A DNA stretch of 46,340 bases from Methylocucumis oryzae. GTDB taxonomy: Bacteria > Pseudomonadota > Gammaproteobacteria > Methylococcales > Methylomonadaceae. The notes under the pieces are model-generated. The model had not been told where the DNA came from. It did not search any database and saw only the letters and a program-made list of their open reading frames with translations. Below, piece by piece: positions 3,252-28,512 of the stretch. The stretch lies in NCBI RefSeq assembly GCF_000963695.1, contig NZ_LAJX01000007.1, forward strand, positions 3,756-50,095, written 5' to 3'. The translations under genes and the position numbers were made by a program. The stretch's first letter is position 1, and every line of letters begins with the position of its first letter.

Positions 3252-5836
3252 TTACAGCAGGCCTTTGAGTTTATAGAGAAATTCTAAGGCTTGCTTAGGG
3301 CTTAATTCATCTGGATTCGCATCGGATAACAGCAAGACTGCCGGATGACAATCATTAGAGGCAAACAAGTCTAATTGATTAACGCCGGTTTCTTTTTGCT
3401 GGTCTATGTAGGCTTGGGTCTCTAACTGTTGTAGCTTAAGTTTGGCTTTTTCTATCACAACTTTGGGGACGCCCGCTAAAGCGGCGACTTGTAAGCCATA
3501 ACTTTGGCTGGCGGGGCCTTCTTTAACGGCATGCATAAAAATAATCTTCTCCCTATGTTCCATCGCATCTAAATGCACATTGCGTATCGCCTTATAGTCG
3601 TCGGCTAGTGCGGTTAGCTCAAAATAATGCGTGGCGAATAGCGTATACGCCTTACAGACTTTCGCTAAATAATCGGCGCATGACCACGCTAATGACAAGC
3701 CATCAAACGTGCTAGTACCGCGTCCTACTTCATCCATTAATACTAAGCTATTTTCGGTAGCGTTATGCAAAATATTAGCGGTTTCAGACATTTTCCACCA
3801 TAAACGTGGAACGGCCGCTGGTTAAATCATCTGACGCACCGATGCGGGTAAAAATCTTATCCACAGGGCCTAAGGTTAATGATTTAGCAGGCACAAAACA
3901 GCCTATATGCGCAATTAGCACGATGAGTGCTGTTTGCCGCATATACGTGGATTTACCGCCCATATTCGGCCCGGTAATGATTAACATACGTCGTTTGGGT
4001 GACAGTTCTAAATCGTTAGCGACAAACGGTTGCTCTGATACCTGCTCGACGACTAAATGTCTGCCGGCTTGAATGTCAATTCCGGGATTAGCTGTTAGCT
4101 CAGGCTTAACGAGTTGCAAACGCTCGCTACGCTCAGCAAAATTAGTCAACACATCTAATTCAGCTAACGCTAGCGCACAGTGTTGTAATTCGGATAAAGA
4201 CTGACCTAAACGGTTTAGTAGTTCATCATACAATGCTTTTTCAAAGGCTAAGGCTTTTTCGCGTGCGCTTAATACCTTGTCTTCAAAACGCTTTTAGCTC
4301 GTCAGTAATATAGCGCTCCGCACCTTTTAAGGTTTGTTTGCGGTGATAATGAGCGGGAATTTTAGTGCTATGCTGATGGCTAATCTCGATATAGTAGCCA
4401 TGTACGCGGTTATAATTGACTTTCAGCGTATTAATGCCGGTAGCGGCTTTTTCTCTTGCCTCTAAATCGATTAAAAACTGATCGGCATGTTGGCTTAAAT
4501 AACGTAATTCGTCTAATTCAGCGCTATAACCTGGTGCAATAACGCCGCCGTCGCGAATTAAAACGGGTGGATTATCGATAATGGCTTGTTGTAATAACGC
4601 TACTAACTCAGGATATTCCCCGATTTGTTGCGCTAAACGGTCTAACTCAGGTAGCTCATGCACTGCTAAACAAGCTTGTAATTCGGGTAATACGGCTAAA
4701 GTCTGACGTAACACGACTAAATCGCGTGGTCTAGCTGACTTTAACGCAATACGCGAACTAATTCGCTCAATATCGCCAACATGCCTAAGCTGCGTTTGTA
4801 CTGACTGGAATAAGGCATCGGTTAATAAGGCGGTTATCACGGCATAGCGTTGATTTAATAAGGCTTGATCGCGTAACGGTCTGTGCAACCACCGGCGTAA
4901 ACACCGACTGCCCATCGCCGTTGCGGTCTTATCTAATACGCCTAATAAGGTGTACTGCATTAACCCCGATGGATGAAAGTCTAGCTCTAAATTACGCCGA
5001 CTCGCGGCGTCTAAAATTAACGCATCATGGCTATATTCCACGCGTAAGCCTTGAATATGGGGCAACGCGCTTTGCTGAGTGTCTTTAACATATTGCAATA
5101 ATACCCCGGCCGCAGTGACTGCTAAGGTTAGCGTATCACAACCAAAGCCTTTTAAATCAACGGTATTAAACTGTTGTAATACCCGTTGCCTCGCACTATC
5201 CGCGTCAAAATGCCACGGTGGCCTACGGCATAAACCGCTACGTTGTTTTAAGCTAGGTAATAACGTGACCTCCTCGTTAAACAGCAATTCAGCCGGATTT
5301 AACCGATTCAACTCACTGAGTAATTGGTCATCGGACGACACTTCAATGACTGTAAAGCGACCACTACCTAAATCCAAACTGGCGATGCCGTATTTCTGAC
5401 GTTCTGAGCAAACAGCGACTAATAAATTCTCTTTACGCTCTTCTAATAATGCTTCGTCGGTTACTGTCCCAGGCGTGACAATACGCACGACTTTACGCTC
5501 AACGGGGCCTTTGCTGGTATTGGGGTCGCCGATTTGCTCGCAAATGGCAATTGACATGCCGCACTTAAGCAAACGCGCTAAATAGGATTCGGCAGCATGA
5601 TAAGGAATTCCCGCCATTGCGATAGGTTCGCCTGCTGATTGCCCGCGCGCAGTCAAGGTAATATCCAGCAATTGTGCGGCTTTTACCGCGTCGTCATAAA
5701 ACAGCTCGTAAAAGTCACCCATACGGTAAAACAACAGCGTCTCAGGATAATCGGCTTTTATCCTAAGATATTGTTGCATCATTGGGGTGTGTTGGGTGGG
5801 AGATGTTTTTTTATCAGATTTGACAGAGGTATTCAT
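3252..5836 (-). CDS. mutS: DNA mismatch repair ATPase MutS, read in three pieces
   Basis: MutS recognises mismatches and small loops and recruits MutL. The N-terminal mismatch-binding domain, including the [11 protein letters not shown] segment, is present. So are the clamp and lever regions and the ATPase (GPNMGGKST Walker [17 protein letters not shown] Walker B, ATHYFEL). The frame breaks twice: at the AAAA run 4285-4288 (plus strand) after ITDELKAF, and at the TTTT run 3791-3794 after STFMVE. Deleting one base from each run gives a continuous 860-residue protein with the family's usual sequence across both joins. Sequence error is therefore more likely than decay. If real, the cell would lack mismatch repair. 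Confidence 0.93.
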
Positions 5837-5919
5837 GTAGCAGGGATGTTGTGTTCAGACGCTTGGGCAAATGTTGACCGTCAGCCTACACTATCTTAAT
5901 ACAACTATCCAGATGGCAG

Positions 5920-10647: not shown

Positions 10648-11434
10648 ACATACCAATTTTATAACTGGGTTTTACTGCGATTAATAACGTCATTTGGCTA
10701 AAGCGTAGTAAGCCTTGAGTATGATTAAACAGGCGTTCACCGCCTTCGCGATGTAGCACGCTTTGTTGCTGCCAAGCTTGATTAAACGCTAAGCTGAGTT
10801 CAGATAACTCGTTGATTAGCGCTTGTAGCTGCGTATCTTGCGGAGCTTGACTAAAATCAGCGCGAAATTCTGCCACTAATCGTTGCGCGCGCTCAGGCCA
10901 ATCGGCTAATAAGGTTTTGGCTTTGGGGTTTAGGAAAACGTATTTAAGTAGATTACGCTCGTAGCTATCGGCGTCTAGCCAGCCATCAAACAGCAACGCT
11001 GCGGGTTTATTCCAAGCTTGGGCGGTCCAATATTGATCGAGTAAATACGCTGGGCCGGAAAATTGTCCTGGTAGTAGACTCATTTCTTGTGTTAATTCTA
11101 TTGCTGGTTCTAAGCTGTCAATAGGGTCGCATTTGTTTGCTAAATTAAACAATGATGCGCGTTCAGCAGGTGTAAGTTTTAGGCTGTCTGCTAAGCGCGA
11201 TAAGGCATTGACTGATAAAGCGACATCGCGGCCTTGTTCTACCCATGTTAACCACGTCACGCTAACGGCTGCGGCTTGCGCTAATTCTTCGCGCCGCCAA
11301 CCGGGTGTACGTCTGCGGCCTAGGCTATGTGTAGGTGCAGGCAAGCGTTCGCGATGCGCCCTGATAAATTGACCTAAAAGGTGTCGGCGTTCTGTGCTTG
11401 TCATAGTGAATTTTATACTAGGATAACTCTTCAT
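10637..11434 (-). CDS. XRE-family regulator with MmyB-like ligand-binding domain
   Basis: An N-terminal helix-turn-helix (about residues 25-85, including RRTPGWRREELAQAAAVSVTWLTWVEQGR) is followed by an MmyB-like sensor domain, with LDQYWTAQAWNKPAALLF and NLLKYVFLNP as recognisable segments. These regulators often bind fatty acids and control the adjacent divergent gene. That gene here is the methyltransferase at 11495. Start: the frame opens at 11434, but the ATG at 11404 (MTSTERRHLLGQ) matches the usual family start. The C terminus is a few residues shorter than usual. Target genes are inferred. Confidence 0.85.
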   Translation of the reverse strand: MKSYPSIKFTMTSTERRHLLGQFIRAHRERLPAPTHSLGRRRTPGWRREELAQAAAVSVTWLTWVEQGRDVALSVNALSRLADSLKLTPAERASLFNLANKCDPIDSLEPAIELTQEMSLLPGQFSGPAYLLDQYWTAQAWNKPAALLFDGWLDADSYERNLLKYVFLNPKAKTLLADWPERAQRLVAEFRADFSQAPQDTQLQALINELSELSLAFNQAWQQQSVLHREGGERLFNHTQGLLRFSQMTLLIAVKPSYKIGMFNT

Positions 11435-11494
11435 CTTGTACCAGTTACGTTTCAGATAAACAATAGCCGCGTTACTTAATTAATGGAGGTTACG

Positions 11495-12261
11495 ATGAAT
11501 ACTGAGCAACATGCTCAAAAAGTAGTAAAGCAATTTGGCTCTAAAGCTCACGGTTATTTAACCAGTTCTGTCCATGCGCAAGGTGAAGATTTAGCAGCGC
11601 TAGTTGAGATTGTTGGCTTGAGTCATGAGGCAAGGGTATTAGATTTGGGGTGTGGTGCGGGTCATGTCGCATTTAATTTGGCGCCTTTAGTGAGCGAGGT
11701 CGTAGCTTACGATTTATCGGAAGACATGTTGGCCGTGGTAGCGCAAGAGGCTAAGCGCCGTGATTTGCCGAATATTAAGACTCAAATCGGTGCAGTGGAA
11801 TGTTTGCCTTATGCTGATGAATCGTTCGATTGGGTGGTCACGCGGCTTAGTGCGCATCATTGGTTAAAACGTCGCGGGTGGTTTGTCAGAAATCAATAGG
11901 GTGTTAAAGCCAAACGGTTTTGCTGTAATTATCGATTTATTAAGCCCTGGTGTGTTTTTGCTTGATACGTGGTTGCAAACGATTGAGTTATTGCGTGATA
12001 CATCGCATGTGCGTAATTTGTCGTTGGCGGAGTGGCATGCGTTGATTGCGGTGGCCGGGCTTAAAGTGTTTCGGGTAAACACTTTTAGACGACGTTTTGG
12101 AATTTGCATCTTGGGTAGGGCGAATGCAGGCGCCAGAGCATTATGTTATGGCGATTCGTTCATTACAGCAGTGTGCAAGTACTGAAGTCGCGAAGTATTT
12201 TGCTTTTGAGGCTGATGGTAGTTTTACTAGCGATACGGTGTTAATCGTCGCAAGTAAATGA
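11495..12261 (+). CDS. Class I SAM-dependent methyltransferase (YafE/UbiE-like), two frameshifts
   Basis: A Rossmann methyltransferase with motif I VLDLGCGAGHVAF (about residues 49-61) and downstream acidic motif VVAYDLSEDML. The ATG at 11495 follows GGAGG by 5 bases. The frame breaks at AAAA 11866-11869 and again at TTTT 12095-12098. Removing one base from each yields a 254-residue protein with continuous sequence (HHWLNVAGGLSEINRVLKP, then RRLEFASWVGRMQAPEHY) ending at 12261. Substrate unknown. It is divergent from the MmyB-like regulator, which may control it. Confidence 0.8.
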
Positions 12262-12286
12262 CGGTGTGGCGGTTATTGATAGGCAT

Positions 12287-12308
12287 AAAAAACCGCTCGT
12301 AAGCGGTT
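12287..12308 (-). terminator. Rho-independent terminator (minus strand)
   Basis: AACCGCT (12291-12297) and AGCGGTT (12302-12308) form a 7-bp stem with a CGTA loop. On the minus strand a TTTTTT tract follows directly. It sits just past the tRNA-Cys 3' end and presumably terminated the original tRNA transcript. Confidence 0.8.
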
Positions 12309-12326
12309 GAATATATTAGCCTAGTT

Positions 12327-12374
12327 TGGAGGCTGCGATCGGAATCGAACCGATATAGACGGCTTTGCAGGCTG
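12327..12374 (-). other. Prophage attachment site: 3' half of tRNA-Cys
   Basis: On the minus strand this reads as the anticodon loop CTGCAAA (anticodon GCA), the 3' anticodon stem GCCGT, a T arm (TCGGTTCGATTCCGA), the acceptor strand CGCAGCC and the end TCCA of tRNA-Cys. The 5' half is missing: no matching GGCTGCG acceptor strand or D arm lies to the right, where AT-rich phage DNA begins. Site-specific integration into tRNA 3' ends leaves exactly this structure. The intact tRNA-Cys and the integrase gene should lie beyond the right edge of the window. Confidence 0.85.
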
Positions 12375-12464
12375 TTGTAATTGGTTATAAATCAATATAT
12401 TAAAAATTTAACCACTCATTTAACCATTCGACAAGCAACAGCGTTGGTTAACAGCATTGCATTT

Positions 12465-12629
12465 TTATTTAACAGCAAAAAACCATTGCTGAAAAGATGT
12501 TAAATCATCTTTATCTATCAACAATTTAAATTTATTGCCATTACCATTAGATAAAAACAGTTCACAACTATACCGCTCTCTATTGAATCCTATTGTTTCT
12601 ATTTTTAATTCATCAACAATGTCTGTCAT
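12465..12629 (-). CDS. Small phage protein, 54 residues
   Basis: Not recognised. Starts MTDIVDELKIETIGFN and ends SFQQWFFAVK. The ATG at 12629 is preceded by AAGGTGGGG, a strong ribosome binding site, 10 bases after the stop of the gene upstream. It is the last gene of the leftward operon, about 90 bases from the attachment site. Soluble by composition. Confidence 0.6.
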   Translation of the reverse strand: MTDIVDELKIETIGFNRERYSCELFLSNGNGNKFKLLIDKDDLTSFQQWFFAVK

Positions 12630-21839: not shown

Positions 21840-23004
21840 TTATCCAGCGTTTGATAGAAACTTTTTTTCGTTTTCATCAAGCAAACCGGATTGCTCGGCT
21901 TTTGCGAAAATACCTTTTAGGCGTCGTTCAAAAAAACCTAAAAGTTGTTGGTCTGTAAAATGATTCGGATGATTTGCTTTAAATGTAGCTGTTAACGCCA
22001 CCTCGCCAACTTGCAACTTTTGTTGCGGTGCGGCTACCGGTTGTGTTTTAACCAGCTCTGTTCGGTTTTCAGGCAGGTCAACAGGTTGTTGTTCAACTTT
22101 AGCTTGCTGTGCCGCTTTTTTAGAGGCTATTTCATCGGCTTTCTCGCGCCTTTTTTAATTCCGCCTCGACTAGCTCAATTAATTTAGCCATAAACACCTG
22201 TTCATCAGCTAAAAACGCATCGCCCAGGTATTCTTTTGTGATTGGAGGGTTAATACCCTCCTTGAAACACTCGTTATTGATTATTAAAACGCGCTTATCG
22301 ATTAGCGATTGAATGCGCACGGCGTCATATAATCGAGTGTTAAGCGCTTCCTGCGCTCTCTTTGTTAACTTTCCGCTAGGAGTTATGCTGCTTAGCAACA
22401 CCAGAGCTGAAATATCCATTTTTCTTAAATCAGCCGTTATTTTGCTTTCATCGTAAAGTTTGGTTAGCTCTTCGATTAAAAGCGTTCTAACGGTGGCTAA
22501 ACGCTCTTTTTTGCGTTCATCAAAAATAGCCAACATCGATTTTCTAGCTTCACCAAGCAATTTTATTCTTTTGGTAGCATCGTTTTTCCAAGCCGATACT
22601 TCAGCAGTTTCTGCGTCAAAAACTTGTTTAACAAAGCCAAGCAGCGCTTTTTCGGATTTGTTAATCTTTGTCCCAAGCTCGATTATTTGTTTTTCGCCTT
22701 CGTCGGATTCTTCCGGCACTAAGCCAGACACTTTTGCGACAAATTCATCAACTTTCGCTAAGTACGACGGATTTGTTCTAAAATCGCTGGGTAACGACTC
22801 AGGAAAAACACCATCAATAACAACCAACTGTTTTGGCTGTTCTTCAATTAACTTAACGATGATATTGCCTTTTTTGACAACACCAAGGTTTCTAAACGCC
22901 TCTGATTCAAAAGCCACGCGTTTGGCTTTGGCTTCACTTTCTGCGCTTACAACTGTTATAAAGTCATCGCCTTTTGCTGTTGGTATGGTTACTTGAAATT
23001 GCAT
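21840..23004 (-). CDS. DUF1351 family phage protein, frameshifted
   Basis: The family is found beside phage exonuclease/annealing genes and is mostly coiled-coil. Typical segments are KQLVVIDGVFPESLPSDFRT, IIELGTKINKSEKALLGFVK and AWKNDATKRIKLLGEARKS. The frame closes at 22132. One base removed from T6 22151-22156 continues it through AELKRREKADEIASKKA into a proline/glutamine linker and a charged C-terminal helix, ending at 21840 (387 residues). This also closes an otherwise unexplained 300-base gap. Role inferred: support of RecE/RecT recombination. Confidence 0.8.
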
Positions 23005-23011
23005 GACAACC

Positions 23012-23170
23012 TCACAGGTAGGTCAGTGATAATGCAATCATGGTAATTATTGCCACGATAAAGCATTTAATTTGAATTGTTGGTTTAGCGGCTCGTTTAT
23101 AAGCATGTTGCCATGCTAGTAAATCAAGCTCAGATAACATGTCTGGTGCTAAATTAGCTTGTGGTTTCAT
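23012..23170 (-). CDS. Small tail-anchored membrane protein, 52 residues
   Basis: A polar N-terminal part (MKPQANLAPDMLSELD) then one C-terminal membrane helix (IKCFIVAIITMIALSLTYL). ATG 23170 follows GAGGAC at a good distance; the frame extends upstream to 23200 but lacks a better start. Second gene of the leftward operon. Function unknown. Confidence 0.55.
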   Translation of the reverse strand: MKPQANLAPDMLSELDLLAWQHAYKRAAKPTIQIKCFIVAIITMIALSLTYL

Positions 23171-23172
23171 AA

Positions 23173-23352
23173 TTAAGTCCTCTTTGTCCAATACGCCCAA
23201 TCAAATGGCTGGGCTGTTTTTTGTTGTATTGGGCCGCAAAACCGTTCTATTTTCATATCAGATTCGCGGCGGTATATTTCAACGCCGTGCTGCCTGATGG
23301 CAATCGTGGCGTTGGGTAGTTTTTTGGCGAGTAATTCGCCTAATTCGGTCAT
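23173..23352 (-). CDS. Small phage protein, 59 residues, first gene of the left operon
   Basis: Begins MTELGELLAKKLPNATIAI, with a GVEIYRRESDMKIERF middle, and ends AYWTKRT. Soluble, not recognised. ATG 23352 is chosen for its upstream GGTGA. It is the first gene after the long structured leader of the leftward promoter, where lambdoid phages often keep short regulators; this is only positional. Confidence 0.55.
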   Translation of the reverse strand: MTELGELLAKKLPNATIAIRQHGVEIYRRESDMKIERFCGPIQQKTAQPFDWAYWTKRT

Positions 23353-23383
23353 TACAATCACCTACTTTCATTATTTATCTCAC

Positions 23384-23453
23384 CCTTAACATTCCCCGGT
23401 TAAGGTCGGGTTTTGAAACAAAACTTACCAAAAAGACCCCGGCGAACCGGGGT
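23384..23453 (-). promoter_or_regulatory. Two hairpins in the leftward operon leader
   Basis: On the transcribed (minus) strand, the first hairpin has stem ACCCCGG/CCGGGGT and a UUCG loop (23436-23453), followed by CTTTTT, so it resembles a terminator. The second (CCTTAAC 23384-23390 with GTTAAGG 23399-23405) follows it. Both lie between the promoter at 23491-23519 and the first gene. This looks like an attenuator or antitermination (nut/put-like) leader; no N-like protein was found. Confidence 0.55.
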
Positions 23454-23490
23454 GAAGCGAGGTAAACAGACTTGCGCTCTGTTGGCAAGA

Positions 23491-23519
23491 ATAATAGATA
23501 CATAACGTATCTATGTCAA
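23491..23519 (-). promoter_or_regulatory. Leftward early promoter with repressor operator
   Basis: On the minus strand a perfect -35 TTGACA (23514-23519) is separated by 17 bases from -10 TATTAT (23491-23496). The spacer is almost entirely the palindrome TAGATAC-N5-GTATCTA (23495-23513). The half-sites match those at the repressor and cro promoters, so this is almost certainly the prophage repressor's left operator. A degenerate second site, AATAC-N5-GTTAT, lies at 23528-23542. Confidence 0.85.
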
Positions 23520-23636
23520 ACAAAATAAATACAAAACGTTATCTTTATTTTCCGTATTATCTTTTTTATAAATAAAAACAAATGCTTAAATTTTTTTAAA
23601 ATCGATAAAAATTACTTTTATCAAAATTTTAGGCAT

Positions 23637-23664
23637 AAAAAAAACCGCCGTGAGGCGGTTTTTT
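23637..23664. terminator. Bidirectional terminator
   Basis: AAAACCGCC (23641-23649) and GGCGGTTTT (23654-23662) form a 9-bp stem with a GTGA loop. There are T or A tracts on both sides, so it can act in both directions. It ends the lysogenic operon coming from the right. The AT-rich stretch 23543-23636 shows nothing else. Confidence 0.85.
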
Positions 23665-23685
23665 AAAGGTTGTTTAATTTATAGG

Positions 23686-24060
23686 TTAAACAAAATTGAC
23701 TTGATTCGGCGTCGATTTTTTTGTGCTAATTAGTTGTTGAACTGATGCTTTAATTGATGAACTAGTTTGTTCGCTCAATCTACGACGAATTGCAGTAGCA
23801 ATAACTCGTGATATATGACCAGAGTTCTGGCTAAAGCTAATTTTTATCCTATTTGAGAACCACTCAAGACCGTTTTCCTCAACAAGCACAGCAAACAATT
23901 CATCTGCATAAGATTCCGAAATAGAAATAACATTAGTTAAATCTATATTAACAATGTTATTAGCCGCTTCTTGTTGTACTTGATACCTAAGATTGCGAGC
24001 GCTAAATCTTGATGCTAAATCGGTTCCGTCTGGTTTAATTATTAAGTGCGTCTTATTCAT
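23686..24060 (-). CDS. STAS-like domain protein (DUF4325)
   Basis: 124 residues from ATG 24060, chosen because GAGG lies 7 bases upstream; the frame opens at 24066. The core NIVNIDLTNVISISESYADELFAVLVEENG, shown here in the family's order of strand, helix start and S-x-x-ADEL motif, matches the STAS-like DUF4325 family. The fold resembles anti-anti-sigma factors. It overlaps the GHKL ATPase gene, and the two families are commonly adjacent. By analogy with anti-sigma/anti-anti-sigma pairs the ATPase may phosphorylate or bind it; this is inference. Last gene of the lysogenic operon. Confidence 0.75.
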   Translation of the reverse strand: MNKTHLIIKPDGTDLASRFSARNLRYQVQQEAANNIVNIDLTNVISISESYADELFAVLVEENGLEWFSNRIKISFSQNSGHISRVIATAIRRRLSEQTSSSIKASVQQLISTKKSTPNQVNFV

Positions 24061-25027
24061 AATCATACCTCATTAGCTCTTCAATAGATGAAATAGCTTC
24101 ATCTGGGGTGTTGTTATTTTTATATTGTGTAGCTTGTTGCGTATTAAACCTGCACGCTAAGGCTACACCTTTCCAATGTGGACTATCGGAATAAAAGTGT
24201 TGACCATCTCTAATATGCAAAGTGCAATTACCACTTGCAAGCCAAAGAAAGCCATTGTAATTGTTTACTAGCTTTACTAATTTTGCAAGACCTAATCCCA
24301 AATGATGATTTTCACTTACTTTGGGTTTACCTATTTTATTAGGCATCGGACTACCAATAGTATCTGGCGGTAAAGATTGTTTCCAATCATCATTAGTACA
24401 TTTTTTGGTTGAGTTGCCTTCGATAATACACCACTCAATAGCTTCTTTATCAGTGTTAATATGCTTTCCGATGCTACTACTTTGCAACTCTTTAAGAAAT
24501 CCTAATCCGCAGTCGGCGAGTGCAAATTCAAAAAAATAAGAGCAAGAACTTTTATCTTGCCATTTTTGAGCCATAGAGAAGCCCGTGCTTTTACCGTGCG
24601 ACCACACATTGTCATGTAAATCTCCAACTACATTGCACAAGTCATGCATAAACTCAGGCAAATTGCAGTTAGTAAATATATGACGAATACAATTGTTTAT
24701 AGTATTAGTCGCTTTATCAGTATCATCAACGCTATTTAATAAAACCAACTGGCTATAATTTGCTCCAGAATTAATTCTAGGGTAAGGATAGTTATCACAG
24801 TTGCTTAATACCTTTTCCAAACAGATTGCTTGTGAGTATGAGCAATGACTTGGGTTTTCAAAGATTAATTTATCAAATGTGATGTTTTTATGTTTTGCAT
24901 ACGCTGCTAATGTTGCCCAATATCCAGGGACAATAAAGCCATCAGAAATTGTTGGTTTTACAGGTTGATTAATAATCAATTCATCAAATAAAAATTCGTT
25001 TAATCCTTTAATCTTCGATATTGTCAT
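24053..25027 (-). CDS. GHKL (histidine-kinase-like) ATPase
   Basis: 324 residues with an N-terminal helical region (1-120) of unknown fold and a C-terminal Bergerat-type ATP site. The N-box-like region is GDLHDNVWSH (D136, N140, H144), the G1 box is LADCGLGF (D172-G176), and the G2 box is HHLGLGLAKL (244-247). No phosphoacceptor histidine domain or membrane segment, so it is not a classical sensor kinase. The partner is the STAS-like protein encoded just downstream with a short overlap. It is transcribed with the phage repressor, so it should be made in the lysogen. Confidence 0.78.
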   Translation of the reverse strand: MTISKIKGLNEFLFDELIINQPVKPTISDGFIVPGYWATLAAYAKHKNITFDKLIFENPSHCSYSQAICLEKVLSNCDNYPYPRINSGANYSQLVLLNSVDDTDKATNTINNCIRHIFTNCNLPEFMHDLCNVVGDLHDNVWSHGKSTGFSMAQKWQDKSSCSYFFEFALADCGLGFLKELQSSSIGKHINTDKEAIEWCIIEGNSTKKCTNDDWKQSLPPDTIGSPMPNKIGKPKVSENHHLGLGLAKLVKLVNNYNGFLWLASGNCTLHIRDGQHFYSDSPHWKGVALACRFNTQQATQYKNNNTPDEAISSIEELMRYDYE

Positions 25028-25034
25028 GGAATTA

Positions 25035-25913
25035 CTAAGCAGCTTCTTTTTGAATAATTAACTCAGCCAGCTCTTTAGCTGATGGTCGTTTAACTACGCT
25101 TAAATTAATCGTGTGAGCGATTTCGGTCAGGTTATTAAAATGATTTTCGGCTTCACTGGTGGTGTCGTTATCCAATGCAACTAACAATTCAAATTCCTGG
25201 TCGCTACTAATAACCTCTGATTCTCTTGTTTTTTTTAATACTTCTAATTCAAGCAATTTAGCTTGTGCGCCTTTAAACGCCGCTTTAATTTGCTTCACAT
25301 TAAAATTGGCTAAATTGGCGTTATATTTTTCACCCAGGTAATCGATAGTGATAATACCTTTGTTTACAGCAACCTGTTGTTGCCAGCGCCCGTTAAATTT
25401 TGGGTTAATGGCTATAGTCAGTTCTTTGATTTGCTTAATCAGATTAATCGTATGTTTATCATCATCTTCATCAACCGTTATGCCATTGATTTCTTGCAAA
25501 GGCTTATCGACCAGTTCGCCGCTATACAAACTAGAAAATTGAGTTAGCGCTTGGAATAACACCCCTTCCATACCCGCATTTGACCGGGTTGACTGCACAT
25601 CACCCAAATAAACGCCATTTAACGGCGGCTGCCATTGCTCAACACTATGCCCATTATTTAAATAGTTGTTTGCATCATCGATTAGCGTCATAATTAAGTT
25701 GTTAATGCGGTCAGCGTGAATGCTGTACATACATTGAAGCTTGGCGTCGGATAATGTTTTTATGACACAGCTTGTTCCAGATGACTCTTGAGCTAAGATA
25801 GCAATCGTTAAGCGTTCGCCGGAGCCGACAATTGGCTCAAAATAGACAGGCCTTAATTTTGCCGAATAGTCCGGCATCGGCGGAGCAAGTGACGTTATGG
25901 CATCAAAAATCAT
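25035..25913 (-). CDS. DUF3037-like partner of the HipA-like kinase
   Basis: 292 residues. The N-terminal third (YSAKLRPVYFEPIVGSGERL, then TIAILAQESSG) follows the pattern of DUF3037, a family usually encoded next to short HipA-like kinases. The remainder is mostly helical with no named domain. The start overlaps the kinase stop (ATGA), so the two products are made together. Family assignment is by motif pattern only and needs a profile search. Role unknown; it could be the kinase's regulator or substrate. Confidence 0.5.
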   Translation of the reverse strand: MIFDAITSLAPPMPDYSAKLRPVYFEPIVGSGERLTIAILAQESSGTSCVIKTLSDAKLQCMYSIHADRINNLIMTLIDDANNYLNNGHSVEQWQPPLNGVYLGDVQSTRSNAGMEGVLFQALTQFSSLYSGELVDKPLQEINGITVDEDDDKHTINLIKQIKELTIAINPKFNGRWQQQVAVNKGIITIDYLGEKYNANLANFNVKQIKAAFKGAQAKLLELEVLKKTRESEVISSDQEFELLVALDNDTTSEAENHFNNLTEIAHTINLSVVKRPSAKELAELIIQKEAA

Positions 25914-26659
25914 AATAGCGACTGTTGTGAGGTAGATATTTTTTGTTGAGTGATAGGCAATAGATAATGCACTCTTTTCCTTAAAAATTCTACTATGTCG
26001 GCTAGCAATTGTGATTCGGTTTTGTTATTAACATCGATAATTCGCTTAGCAATGGCCGTAGGCAATTCGCTATCAAAACTTTGCAAAGTCATGTGCAGTT
26101 GTTGCTTTAATCGCTGCCGACCAAGGTCGTCTTCTTTTTTTATTGTCGCAAGCCTGATATTTAGCAATACATTACGGATAGGGGCGTCGGGGGCAAAAGG
26201 CAGTCGCATAGCGCGATTATGGTCGATTAAATAGAACTGGTTTCCCCCGTCATAAAGGATATTACCCGCGTTTCTATCATCGTTAGCAATCCATTCGTCG
26301 AATTGAATTGCTTTTTGAATCTCAGACCAATTAGCTATTTTATGTATCAGTTGGGTATAGGCTTGTGGGTTAGCTGTTGATAGCCGCCTGGTTAAATCCG
26401 GGTATTTCATGTCAACCGAGGCAAACCAAACATCATTGTTTTCATCAACCGCCGCAATTGGCTCAGGGATGGGTAAGCCTAATTCTATACCTAGCAATGA
26501 GGCCATTACCTCAACCCAAAATTCTAATTCATTAAGTTTTTTGGCATAGGCGGTTAATTCATACCGGTAATCATTTAGCGCTACTTTTACAATTTGAGCG
26601 CCGTATTTACCGTTTTCAGCGGGCTTAATCGTGTTAACTATTCTTCCGATTCTTATCAT
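25910..26659 (-). CDS. HipA-like serine/threonine kinase (short form)
   Basis: 249 residues, much shorter than HipA (about 440) and lacking its N-terminal subdomain. The catalytic core is clear: a likely ATP-binding lysine in GAQIVKVAL (K25), the catalytic loop FDEWIANDDRNAGNILY (aspartate and asparagines at 126-133), and the metal-binding segment YLIDHNRAM (D146). The ATG at 26659 lies inside the end of the repressor gene and follows AAGG. HipA kinases act as growth-arresting toxins by phosphorylating tRNA-charging enzymes; short forms with DUF3037 have no established target. Transcribed with the prophage repressor. Confidence 0.82.
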   Translation of the reverse strand: MIRIGRIVNTIKPAENGKYGAQIVKVALNDYRYELTAYAKKLNELEFWVEVMASLLGIELGLPIPEPIAAVDENNDVWFASVDMKYPDLTRRLSTANPQAYTQLIHKIANWSEIQKAIQFDEWIANDDRNAGNILYDGGNQFYLIDHNRAMRLPFAPDAPIRNVLLNIRLATIKKEDDLGRQRLKQQLHMTLQSFDSELPTAIAKRIIDVNNKTESQLLADIVEFLRKRVHYLLPITQQKISTSQQSLL

Positions 26660-27095
26660 TAATCAGCCTTTTTGTAATTGTTTCTAACAATTCAATATCG
26701 TCTTGACTTAATGCTTCGTCAATTAAGCCTTGCTCTAAGATTTTTAAAAGTGTTTTTGCTGTGTTTGGCGACGCCATAGGTAATAAACCAGGAATATCCA
26801 CAAGGTTTACTGTGTTGCTTATTTCTTTATGAGTAACCTCACTATCAATAGCATCGCTATCACTAAGATAGGCAGCATTTGATTCTCTAATCGTTGTTCC
26901 ACCTAAAAGCAATTCATCTAACGAGCAATTTAATTTTCTAGCTAATGCTATCAATTGCTCAGCATCCGGTTGACGCCTACCAGCCAAATAATGTCCAACA
27001 GCTCCCCTGGTTGTAACACCAAGAGGTTTTGCTAATTCTTCCTGAGTAATTCCACGCTCTTCCATTAAGCGTTTTGCATGTTCGTACCATTTCAT
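26634..27095 (-). CDS. Prophage repressor (cI-like, XRE family)
   Basis: 153 residues from ATG 27095 (MKWYEHAKRLMEERG). The N-terminal helix-turn-helix is ITQEELAKPLGV, then GAVGHYLAGRRQPDAEQL (about residues 15-65). The C-terminal half lacks a LexA/CI peptidase signature (no Ser-Lys dyad region), so RecA-stimulated self-cleavage is unlikely. The gene overlaps its own promoter-operator at 27102-27124 and is divergent from cro. No Shine-Dalgarno is visible on this strand. Induction may depend on the Bro-N antirepressor at 33798. Confidence 0.85.
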   Translation of the reverse strand: MKWYEHAKRLMEERGITQEELAKPLGVTTRGAVGHYLAGRRQPDAEQLIALARKLNCSLDELLLGGTTIRESNAAYLSDSDAIDSEVTHKEISNTVNLVDIPGLLPMASPNTAKTLLKILEQGLIDEALSQDDIELLETITKRLINDKNRKNS

Positions 27096-27101
27096 AAGGA
27101 T

Positions 27102-27124
27102 ATGATACAAAAAGTATCATTATA
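27102..27124 (-). promoter_or_regulatory. Repressor promoter and operator
   Basis: A perfect -10 TATAAT (minus strand, 27119-27124) overlaps the palindrome ATGATAC-N5-GTATCAT (27102-27120), which also covers the expected start point about 10-17 bases before the repressor ATG. A protein bound here would block its own transcription, so autoregulation is likely. The -35 region (around 27142-27147) is weak. Confidence 0.75.
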
Positions 27125-27150
27125 TGCAACGACACATTTTGTAATAAAAT

Positions 27151-27179
27151 TTGACTTTCTTGTATACGCTATGTATCTT
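27151..27179 (+). promoter_or_regulatory. Rightward early (cro) promoter with operator
   Basis: TTGACT (27151-27156), 17 bases, then TATCTT (27174-27179). An operator-like site TATAC-N5-GTATC (27163-27177) spans the end of the spacer and the -10. It differs from the other two operators at one half-site base. The implied start point is at or near the cro ATG, so the message may be leaderless. Confidence 0.7.
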
Positions 27180-27185
27180 TTAACC

Positions 27186-27407
27186 ATGAAAAACATTACA
27201 ACCCTCAAAGCGCTGATTAATTCAATCGATGCGCCGTCTAAAAAGGCGGCTAGAAAAATTATTGCTGAAAAAATAGGGCTTAAAGAACCGACGATTAAAT
27301 CTTTGGCTAACGGTACTAGACGAATAACAGCCGAAAACGCCACTCATTTATCAAAGGCTTTTCCCATTAAGCGGTCTTCTTTGAGACCTGATTTATTTGA
27401 TGATTAA
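27186..27407 (+). CDS. Cro/YdaS-like regulator
   Basis: 73 residues with a helix-turn-helix (SKKAARKIIAEKIGLKEPTIKSLANGTRRITAENATHL), the layout of YdaS/Cro-type DNA-binding proteins. First gene of the rightward early operon, divergent from the repressor, with the shared operators between. It is expected to repress the lysogenic promoter during lytic growth. A terminator follows 22 bases after its stop. Confidence 0.8.
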   Translation: MKNITTLKALINSIDAPSKKAARKIIAEKIGLKEPTIKSLANGTRRITAENATHLSKAFPIKRSSLRPDLFDD

Positions 27408-27429
27408 GTTTAACTCCTGTGTTGAGCCT

Positions 27430-27453
27430 GCCCGCGTTGCAGCGGGCTTTTTT
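27430..27453 (+). terminator. Rho-independent terminator after cro
   Basis: GCCCGC (27430-27435) and GCGGGC (27442-27447) with a 6-base loop, then TTTTTT. Strong. Genes to the right therefore need read-through, antitermination or their own promoters. Confidence 0.9.
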
Positions 27454-27460
27454 AAATTAT

Positions 27461-27536
27461 TGCGGGGTGGAGCAGTTGGCAGCTCGTGAGTCTCATAAGC
27501 TCAAGGTCGCAGGTTCAAGTCCTGTCCCCGCTACCA
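27461..27536 (+). tRNA. Prophage initiator-type tRNA-Met (anticodon CAT)
   Basis: A complete 76-base cloverleaf with encoded CCA. Acceptor GCGGGG/CCCCGC, D stem GAGC/GCTC, anticodon arm TGAGT-CTCATAA-GCTCA, T arm GCAGG-TTCAAGT-CCTGT. Positions 1 and 72 are T and T (unpaired) and pair 11-24 is A-T; both are hallmarks of initiator tRNA, and the body resembles tRNA-fMet rather than elongator Met or Ile2. The three G-C pairs normally found in the initiator anticodon stem are absent. It lies directly after the cro terminator. Confidence 0.93.
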
Positions 27537-27607
27537 AAACTTTAAACCCTATCCCAGTGGGTGAATGTCTGGGACGGCTAAAAGCCTGGTATTTTTTAAA
27601 TCCATGC

Positions 27608-27774
27608 GCTAAGCGCTTGTTGTGAGTGCTTAGCAGATGGCAATCAGCCGGTGTCCTCACACACCGAAAACCAATGTGAGAAGTCGACTTGAGCGCGTCG
27701 GCGGCGGTTTTAGCTCATGAGTTGAAAATTTGAATGCAACGCTGGGTTGATTGCCGTCCCCACTATCTTGATAG
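27608..27774 (+). ncRNA. Candidate structured RNA downstream of the tRNA
   Basis: The 269-base gap 27537-27805 is non-coding but densely paired. A 9-bp stem-loop with one G-T pair runs from 27608-27616 to 27626-27634. Bases 27639-27649 pair with 27745-27755 (11 bp), closing a domain. Inside it CGGTGT/ACACCG (27649-27654, 27661-27666) forms a hairpin whose loop CTCAC (27656-27660) can pair with GTGAG (27676-27680) as a pseudoknot. AAGTCGACTT (27681-27690) is a palindrome. ACTAT-CTTG-ATAGT follows near 27761. No known RNA family recognised. Confidence 0.5.
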
Positions 27775-27805
27775 TTAAGTCTAGGATAAAACGGAGCTGA
27801 TTAAA

Positions 27806-28384
27806 ATGCTGCGAGAAAAAACGCAAAAACAAGGTTATTCAATCACGCAAGTGATTGATAAACATTTGTTATCGCTATTGCATGACACATCAGTGTCATT
27901 AGCGGTATTTGTTTCAAACGTGCGTGAGCATTACGAAGCTACGCATTTGTTGCATTCTCGTTCCATTGAATGGAGTCAGGTTGCCGACCCAGTTATTCGC
28001 ATGACGCGCGACGCGGAAAAATTTAAACGTTGGTTAGAGCAAGATGGTAGCAAACAACTACCGATTGATTTGTATGATTCGATTGTTGCTGCATTTCCGG
28101 CTGAACGTAAGTTTTCACTGCAAATTGAGTTGATAGCAAGATTAGACTTAGTGCCTGTTCAAATGCCCACGTCCAGCGTGGACGAACTTGCATCATTCGG
28201 CAACATCGCCAAGAAAACCGGGCAGACGATGATTGTGGTCGCCAAGCTTTATGAGGATGGCGTCATCGATAAAAACGATATGGCAACAGCACCGGAGGCT
28301 TTATCGACAATTGATGAGGCTATTGCAGCGCTTTTGGCGATGAAAAACACCATAAACGTTAATGTTTATGGGGAAAAGGCTTAA
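27806..28384 (+). CDS. Phage early protein in CII position, 192 residues
   Basis: Not recognised with certainty. Mostly helical; begins MLREKTQKQGYSITQVIDKH, middle LVPVQMPTSSVDELASFGNIAKKTGQ split here only by description, and ends with an alanine-rich helix and NVNVYGEKA. Its position after cro and before replication genes matches CII/CP76-type regulators, but I see no clear helix-turn-helix. CGGAG lies about 10 bases before the ATG. Long structured non-coding stretches flank it on both sides. Confidence 0.6.
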   Translation: MLREKTQKQGYSITQVIDKHLLSLLHDTSVSLAVFVSNVREHYEATHLLHSRSIEWSQVADPVIRMTRDAEKFKRWLEQDGSKQLPIDLYDSIVAAFPAERKFSLQIELIARLDLVPVQMPTSSVDELASFGNIAKKTGQTMIVVAKLYEDGVIDKNDMATAPEALSTIDEAIAALLAMKNTINVNVYGEKA

Positions 28385-28512
28385 CTAAAACTAGAAAATA
28401 ATTAAAGCAAGAACATGGAGAAAGACGCGCCTTGAATCCACGTCATTCAAATAATAGGTGAGCGCCGTTCGTGTTGCTAGTACCGGCACGATGACAGCTT
28501 GGAAAGACAAGC

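Follow-up and report, generated by a model that had tools for sequence, protein, structure and literature searches.

A prophage immunity region of Methylocucumis oryzae with two predicted anti-phage modules behind a repressor whose tail travels with a kinase

Background

Two systems described in 2025-2026 provide the closest precedents for a five-gene operon that we analyzed in a prophage of Methylocucumis oryzae, within a 46,340-nt stretch of contig NZ_LAJX01000007.1 (the window, to which unlabeled coordinates refer). The first comprises HipA/DUF3037 pairs, described as stand-alone defense systems in which deletion of the kinase ends defense and deletion of the DUF3037 gene is toxic; the related Retron-Sda1 operon includes a helix-turn-helix (HTH) gene whose deletion had no effect on defense (PMC12548924). 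The HipA/DUF3037 system is also described as DS-6/HipAD, with a kinase mutant that loses defense (PMC13092281). The second centers on the GHKL kinase CapK, which is activated by single-stranded DNA (ssDNA) and phosphorylates a serine of CapS, a protein whose winged helix spans residues 112-184; VapK is proposed to act likewise, and VapKSC, composed of the GHKL kinase VapK, the STAS antitoxin VapS, and the PIN toxin VapC, protects by about 2 logs against one phage (PMC13373217, EMBO J 2026). As to genomic position, lambda rexAB and BTP1 bstA are anti-phage genes located behind cI in the immunity region (PMC8585504).

The window operon combines a repressor with a relative of each of these systems. 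We consider it probable that this is a lysogenic-conversion (superinfection-exclusion) operon occupying the rex slot, in which two separately acquired anti-phage modules are transcribed with the repressor. Labels L001-L199 denote the loci fetched in our surveys, and the window itself counts as one locus (self) in several of the survey totals.

Results

The operon and its place in the immunity region

Five open reading frames (ORFs) run on the minus strand from the repressor ATG at 27095 to the stop codon of the STAS gene at 23686; the first two junctions are overlaps of 26 and 4 nt, the third is a gap of 7 nt, and the fourth is an overlap of 14 nt. The features of the operon are as follows.

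26634..27095, minus strand: CI-like phage repressor (HTH_3 head, Pfam 7.7e-14; no Peptidase_S24 at E<=1; ATG at 27095)
26637..26795, minus strand: C-terminal tail of the repressor, accompanying the kinase/partner module (alignment; tail-profile matches that abut kinases; blind genome match L198)
25910..26659, minus strand: HipA_2-family protein kinase, predicted toxin (Pfam HipA_2 1e-11; PDC-M66A 1.4e-6; hhalign; catalytic columns)
25035..25913, minus strand: partner, predicted antitoxin (DUF3037-like N terminus; PD-(D/E)XK-like C-terminal fold; phrog_21150 2.9e-34)
24053..25027, minus strand: GHKL kinase, VapK-like (phrog_3364 1.7e-44; SpoIIAB-like model; hhalign to a VapK-like set)
23686..24066, minus strand: STAS protein without a full DNA-binding domain (DUF4325 2.3e-7; serines 50 and 52 invariant)
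23637..23664, minus strand: intrinsic terminator ending the operon (folding energy against shuffles)

The original prediction, made from the letters alone, of five tightly packed genes closed by a terminator was thus confirmed at the base level; the hairpin at 23664-23637 has a folding energy of -14.9 kcal/mol (z -4.25), and none of 200 shuffled sequences was equally stable. The HTH_3, HipA_2, and DUF4325 matches all exceed their Pfam cutoffs, and nothing in Pfam lies above cutoff for the partner or the GHKL protein, both of which have clear PHROG families. Internal promoters are not prominent, with 12 promoter-like sites against 17.2 expected from shuffles of 22500-28500, and the absence of visible separate promoters agrees with the further prediction that the genes share the repressor's promoter.

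A repeated palindrome, GATAC-N5-GTATC, marks putative operators on both sides of the operon.

27104..27118, unstranded: putative operator at the repressor start, perfect GATAC-N5-GTATC (motif scan)
27163..27177, unstranded: second putative operator, before the divergent cro-like gene (motif scan, one mismatch)
23497..23511, unstranded: putative left operator, perfect GATAC-N5-GTATC, beyond the operon terminator and within the spacer of TTGACA-17-TATTAT
23491..23519, minus strand: sigma-70-like promoter facing the leftward genes (11/12 matches), covered by the left operator
27186..27407, plus strand: divergent cro-like HTH gene (YdaS_toxin 5.4e-5, below cutoff, and HTH_3 6.6e-5, both on the longer reading 27081-27407)

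Shuffled sequences gave 0.56 matches to the palindrome per window and three matches in 1 of 100, and a perfect half-site common to both places occurred in 5 of 3000 random pairs (inner window). Among the promoter-like sites of 22500-28500, TTGACA-17-TATTAT is the best. As the five genes lie between the left and right putative operators and are codirectional with the repressor, they occupy the same place as lambda rexAB and BTP1 bstA, a likeness of position and not of homology. These observations support the view that the operon shares the promoter region of the repressor in the slot of known superinfection-exclusion genes. When 19 loci were scanned for such operator pairs, eight had one (window, L069, L081, L179, L183, L185, L080, and L083), and the repeated motif makes the pair convincing in the window, L069, L081, L179, and L183; that of L080 was no better than shuffles (0.11). 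The other 11 had no pair, among them L077, which is without downstream sequence. Directly behind the cro-like gene, and still within the prophage, lies a plus-strand tRNA-Met gene (27461-27536).

A HipAD-like kinase and partner

Sequence comparisons indicate that the kinase and partner are best read as a distant relative of the HipAD/DS-6/PDC-M66 toxin-antitoxin (TA) defense systems. The kinase, correctly foreseen as HipA-like, carries the predicted motifs NDDRNAGN and LIDH in addition to its HipA_2 match; its profile aligns with kinases that precede DUF3037 genes (hhalign 98.3%, E 1.6e-14), and all 17 of the kinases aligned have K40, D128, N133, and D146. Its PADLOC match is to PDC-M66A; no use of the name PDC-M65 turned up in the literature searched for it. 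Of the 27 viral loci found by a scan with the kinase alignment (window included), 25 have the partner adjoining the kinase and two end at a contig end inside the kinase gene; Alteromonas phage P24 and Acinetobacter phage qsb1 have this gene order too. Members of the partner family are rare, being present in only 4 of the 369 genomes scanned from the class, one of which is that of the window. Of the 25 kinase loci listed, which omit the near-copies L084, L085, L087-L089, and L091, 16 have a phage repressor among the ORFs lying closest upstream, with P24 and its contig copy taken as one.

The expected DUF3037-like character of the partner held in part: it is recognizable at the motif level and through an intermediate, L198, but Pfam gives no DUF3037 match at E<=1. 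The third gene of L198 aligns with the partner family (hhalign 86.8%, E 4.3e-6) and matches Pfam DUF3037 at E 0.031 (14.9 bits, under the cutoff of 22.6), and it is only by this route and the motif that the partner may be called DUF3037-like. In the structural model (predicted local distance difference test [pLDDT] 86, predicted template modeling score [pTM] 0.50), residues 155-292 moderately resemble ERCC1 (Z 10.4, root mean square deviation [rmsd] 2.5, 107 residues) and CdiA-CT (Z 10.0). The only invariant residues of the family are M1, E26, P27, S31, E33, and L223; because no conserved nuclease site is apparent in the family alignment, we take this PD-(D/E)XK-like C-terminal domain to be a predicted binding fold.

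A repressor tail that accompanies the kinase

Fifteen repressors upstream of kinases were run against Pfam. Ten are short, lie -28 to +24 nt from the kinase, and lack Peptidase_S24 in every case (window, L001/L078 counted once, L006, L068, L069, L073, L075, L079, L081, and L093); L073 and L081 have no Pfam match of any kind, and only their position and alignment identify them as repressors. The other five are longer (230-262 aa; L074, L077, L080, L083, and L086) and carry Peptidase_S24. Genes intervene between repressor and kinase in L074, L077, and L086, and none in L080 (~72 nt) and L083 (~17 nt); since an S24 repressor directly precedes the kinase in these two, the rule that kinase-abutting repressors are short and free of S24 is not absolute. 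The repressors of L090 and L198 likewise lack Peptidase_S24. In L074, a CsrA-family gene (2.2e-10; 5677-5913) sits between the prophage S24 repressor and the kinase/partner pair.

A C-terminal tail of ~50 residues (A[ST]P[RN][ST]..L..I...) is common to 8 of the 10 short repressors, with a loose version in L006 and L069. Its profile matched 16 ORFs of the family-selected loci, all placed -28 to +9 nt from a kinase; the window with its copies accounts for seven of them and P24 with its contig copy for two, and one, that of L090, had played no part in building the profile. Across 340 genomes of the class, eight had a match: the window's own, L198 (6.7e-17), and six at 8.6e-4 to 9.6e-3. L198, from another family, was found blind by the tail, and its repressor is followed directly by a kinase that is divergent (8.8e-11 with the family profile, and without a HipA_2 match in Pfam) and by the DUF3037-like gene. 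The one weak match that was opened, L199, is a nonrepressor ORF (E 8.6e-4 in the genome scan and 5.4e-7 in a single-locus search), which we take to be an RNA methyltransferase; no kinase-profile match lies beside it, and we treat it as a chance match. Between L078 and L081, the tail (46/53, 87%), kinase (231/248, 93%), and partner (259/287, 90%) are conserved and the repressor head is not (21/71, 30%), which places a breakpoint inside the repressor gene, the head having been swapped and the tail, kinase, and partner kept. A Mantel test of tail against kinase counts against the linkage, as it was not significant over ten loci (rho 0.27, p 0.09) or once L081 was removed (rho 0.17, p 0.24), and the linkage claim therefore rests on the exclusivity of the tail and on this single head-swap pair. 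A tblastn search of phage records with the 46-residue tail found no match and missed P24 itself, and so is uninformative for a query of this length.

This distribution leads us to regard the tail as a functional part of the kinase module, and the repressor may thus be part of the toxin module. A stronger version can be conceived, in which the repressor is a subunit of the toxin module: the tail would dock on the kinase or partner in a HipB-like manner, loss or inactivation of the repressor would free the kinase, and the prophage would guard its own repressor, the triggers being an incoming phage's antirepressor, curing, or damage signaled through the GHKL/STAS pair. The dispensable HTH gene of Retron-Sda1 is contrary to a needed HTH subunit in that relative; we hold this version to be possible but unlikely.

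A VapK/VapS-like pair without VapC

The GHKL protein bears the predicted boxes DCGLG and GLGL, and columns N140, D172, G174, G176, and G244-L247 are invariant in 19 of 19 proteins. Its assignment as a GHKL ATPase drew PHROG, fold, and weak PADLOC matches but no Pfam match; the model (pLDDT 83.9, pTM 0.80) is nearest to SpoIIAB (Z 13.1, rmsd 2.9, 134 residues). The family aligns with a six-member VapK-like set (hhalign 99.6%, E 8.7e-25) that is anchored by one member, L135, through its VapS-like and PIN neighbors; the L135 STAS gene matches the solved VapS 9z7o at 2.2e-13, and a PIN gene adjoins it. F or Y occupies position 31 in 15 of the 19 proteins, and H in 2, within an N-terminal domain that does not align reliably with the one holding CapK W68 and VapK F54, the aromatic residues that contact ssDNA. 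A PDB sequence search with the GHKL profile gave no match at E<=1, and tblastn in phages gave none at E<=1 with the window protein or at 1e-5 with L066 as the query. In the STAS protein, Ser50 and Ser52 are invariant (20/20), and Ser52 falls on what we take, from a hand alignment, to be the phosphoserine position of SpoIIAA. The protein has 126 aa, and a CtsR HTH model matches residues 85-126 at E 0.046, below cutoff. None of the five products has a PIN match at E<=1, and no further gene precedes the terminator. We suggest that the pair is related to VapK/VapS as a distinct VapC-less subfamily; having neither VapC nor a full CapS winged helix, it is filed in the superfamily and not under either named system. 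The anti-sigma switch originally envisaged for this pair gives way to the VapK/VapS likeness, and Pfam finds no sigma factor among the five products.

The pair is stable in its composition. STAS adjoins GHKL in 19 of 20 loci of a genome-contig scan, the remaining one ending at a contig end, and in every locus of two viral scans (3 and 48 loci, window in each). The 47 nonself viral loci, all with STAS next to GHKL, include many near-copies and form 24 near-identity groups; they repeat L065 (as L180), L066 (as L185), and apparently L060 (as L179). In 9 of the 24 groups, from P2-like phages, a convergent portal-like gene is next to the pair; Phage_portal was confirmed in both loci tested (L142 and L168), and L168 has a gpP-like terminase. 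The locus between gpA and gpQ is described as an antiviral hotspot of P2-like phages (PMC9122126), and the portal-side site is apparently this hotspot. Elsewhere, the pair follows an S24 repressor (L060/L179, L065/L180, L066/L185, L183, and L181). A tree was built from 69 searched loci, of which 66 yielded a piece of at least 230 residues and 41 were kept after near-copies were dropped. The window groups with six chromosomal loci (supported clade, 95/95), and the other repressor-linked pairs are divided between two further supported clades, one with L056 (95/93) and one with L178 (100/99); the pair has therefore probably entered the repressor slot on more than one occasion. Deep forks in this tree are unresolved and branches are long; a count of labels that omits unlabeled rows needs one change and is compatible with a single entry, and the reading of several entries rests on unlabeled rows lying between the repressor-linked ones.

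These data also bear on the notion that GHKL/STAS, the kinase, or both control the repressor, replacing RecA-driven cleavage in a prophage whose repressor lacks S24. The window repressor and nine further short repressors before kinases lack this peptidase, and CapK/CapS offers a precedent in which DNA damage is relayed by the phosphorylation of a repressor (PMC13373217). Against such an induction switch, the repressors that precede GHKL/STAS elsewhere have S24 in five of five tested (L060, L065, L066, L181, and L183), and only one of the 20 genome-scan pairs, L060, is directly behind a repressor (by eye), so that we regard it as doubtful.

Several further observations concern relatives of this pair. 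Their DrmA-profile matches raised a link to DISARM, which was rejected, GHKL/STAS being absent by profile in the seven fetched (L126 and L128-L133; the G172 locus was left out) of eight DrmA-core loci. L127 encodes a fused GHKL-STAS protein (11395-12564), covered by positions 41-395 of the PADLOC DrmA model PDLC02567, in a defense island with a DpdE/DrmD-like helicase, a DrmMI-like methylase, and PDC-M07A/B; this model may mislabel GHKL-STAS proteins as DrmA. Another GHKL and STAS family (L010, L014, L018, L019, L020, and L026) is followed by a third gene, small and membrane or coiled-coil like by eye, and L010 and L018 have no PADLOC match except one weak DrmA match. In L059, L061, and L063, the GHKL gene is split into separate ORFs with STAS open; L012 resembles a copy of L059. 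A Leptospira plasmid (L138, 5923-7195) carries a GHKL/DUF4325 pair whose GHKL protein is 34% identical to that of the window, and in a table of a Francisella prophage, CI is followed by a 293-aa protein and a DUF4325 protein.

Two modules stacked behind one repressor

Within the fetched flanks, the two pairs were never found together outside copies of this prophage. Both pairs occurred together in none of 22 nonself GHKL loci, the kinase pair lay beside GHKL in none of 47 nonself viral loci (three of which repeat earlier ones), and the GHKL pair lay beside the kinase in none of 26 nonself kinase loci. Each pair recurs separately, including behind other phage repressors. A neighborhood survey had been proposed to ask whether the two pairs recur together beside phage repressors; each was found there, but in these surveys never with the other. 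On this distribution, one five-gene system is not supported, and in the surveys the set as first conceived was found nowhere else save in copies of this prophage. As the pairs did not co-occur elsewhere in these flanks, we read the operon as two acquisitions stacked behind one repressor.

The tight packing, with 7 nt between the pairs, and the precedent of VapKSC, where one GHKL/STAS pair controls a toxin, might still suggest that GHKL/STAS gates the HipA-like kinase in the way that VapK/VapS does VapC, with ssDNA freeing the kinase via STAS. The missing co-occurrence in all three surveys makes this improbable, and the split in G+C content between kinase/partner (0.41/0.40) and GHKL/STAS (0.35/0.35) points the same way, weakly, since values of 0.38 to 0.48 are found among the other prophage genes there; the repressor stands at 0.38. 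Least probable of all is passive addiction, in which kinase and partner merely stabilize the prophage and GHKL/STAS is decaying cargo, as the TA-like layout and the split GHKL relatives (L059, L061, and L063) could suggest, since the window catalytic columns are intact, GHKL/STAS resides beside the portal gene of P2-like phages, and relatives of both pairs are described as defensive (PMC12548924, PMC13092281, and PMC13373217).

Discussion

Proposed mechanism

Both modules most likely act against incoming phages, in line with the superinfection exclusion or defense originally proposed, to which the rex slot adds support. In a lambda-like immunity region, both pairs would be transcribed together with the repressor. 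The HipA_2 kinase would be a growth-arresting toxin held by its cotranslated DUF3037-like partner and freed on infection, and the repressor-borne tail suggests that the repressor shares in holding or sensing the kinase. In the second module, ssDNA from phage replication or damage would activate the GHKL kinase, which would then phosphorylate STAS on a conserved serine and alter its binding; the effector would be encoded elsewhere than beside the pair.

Several results weigh against this proposal. The PADLOC matches are weak (26 bits). For the first module, a direct hhalign comparison of the partner with DUF3037 proteins was not significant (probability 0.2%, E 0.38), and 9 of the 25 listed kinase loci have, by eye, no repressor among the nearest upstream ORFs (L002, L008, L009, L070, L071, L072, L076, L082, and L092, some among tail genes); the Retron-Sda1 HTH result adds to these. 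For the second, the N-terminal domain, site of the ssDNA contact in CapK/VapK, does not align reliably with the VapK-like set, the window STAS alone has no PDB match at E<=10, the STAS family profile reaches E 0.28 at best against VapS, and a single genome-scan pair, the above-noted L060, is directly behind a repressor.

The operon carries the two recently described systems into the immunity region of temperate phages and shows a VapC-less VapK/VapS-like subfamily in two kinds of phage defense slot. The repressors described here point to a class, new here, that lacks a LexA-type peptidase and whose tail travels with a predicted toxin kinase. Should the tail bind the kinase, the lysogeny switch and an abortive-infection toxin would be joined in one circuit, which could account in part for the way in which a prophage senses attack when its repressor is uncleavable.

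Comparison with known systems

The prediction that no named system has this composition holds for the composite, but its first pair is HipAD/DS-6/PDC-M66-like and its second VapK/VapS-like. Common to the operon and HipAD/DS-6/PDC-M66 are a HipA_2-family kinase whose catalytic residues are intact, a partner encoded in the overlapping gene behind it, and an HTH gene, the last as in Retron-Sda1. The operon differs in that Pfam gives no DUF3037 match for the partner, whose C-terminal fold is predicted to be PD-(D/E)XK-like, that the HTH gene is a phage repressor with a module-specific tail whereas that of Retron-Sda1 is dispensable, and that the locus lies in a prophage immunity region.

Like VapKSC, the window has a GHKL kinase of the VapK kind and a STAS partner with conserved serines, but it lacks VapC and its pair appears to form a distinct subfamily. 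CapK and CapS likewise combine a GHKL kinase with a STAS substrate; CapS has 184 aa, so that the 126-aa window protein has no room for a full winged helix, and the CapK/CapS system stands beside an immune operon with its own promoter, none of which was seen at the window. SpoIIAB and RsbW share the GHKL fold, and the window operon differs from them in that none of its five products matches a sigma factor.

By position, the operon is closest to other prophage-borne exclusion genes; stk of phage 933W, for one, is placed behind cI. Stk is described as a prophage kinase that is expressed in the lysogen and aborts superinfection (PMC8008677), and rexAB and bstA are, like the window genes as we read them, anti-phage genes behind cI in the immunity region (PMC8585504). 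The proteins of all three are unrelated to those of the window, which stacks two modules in this slot.

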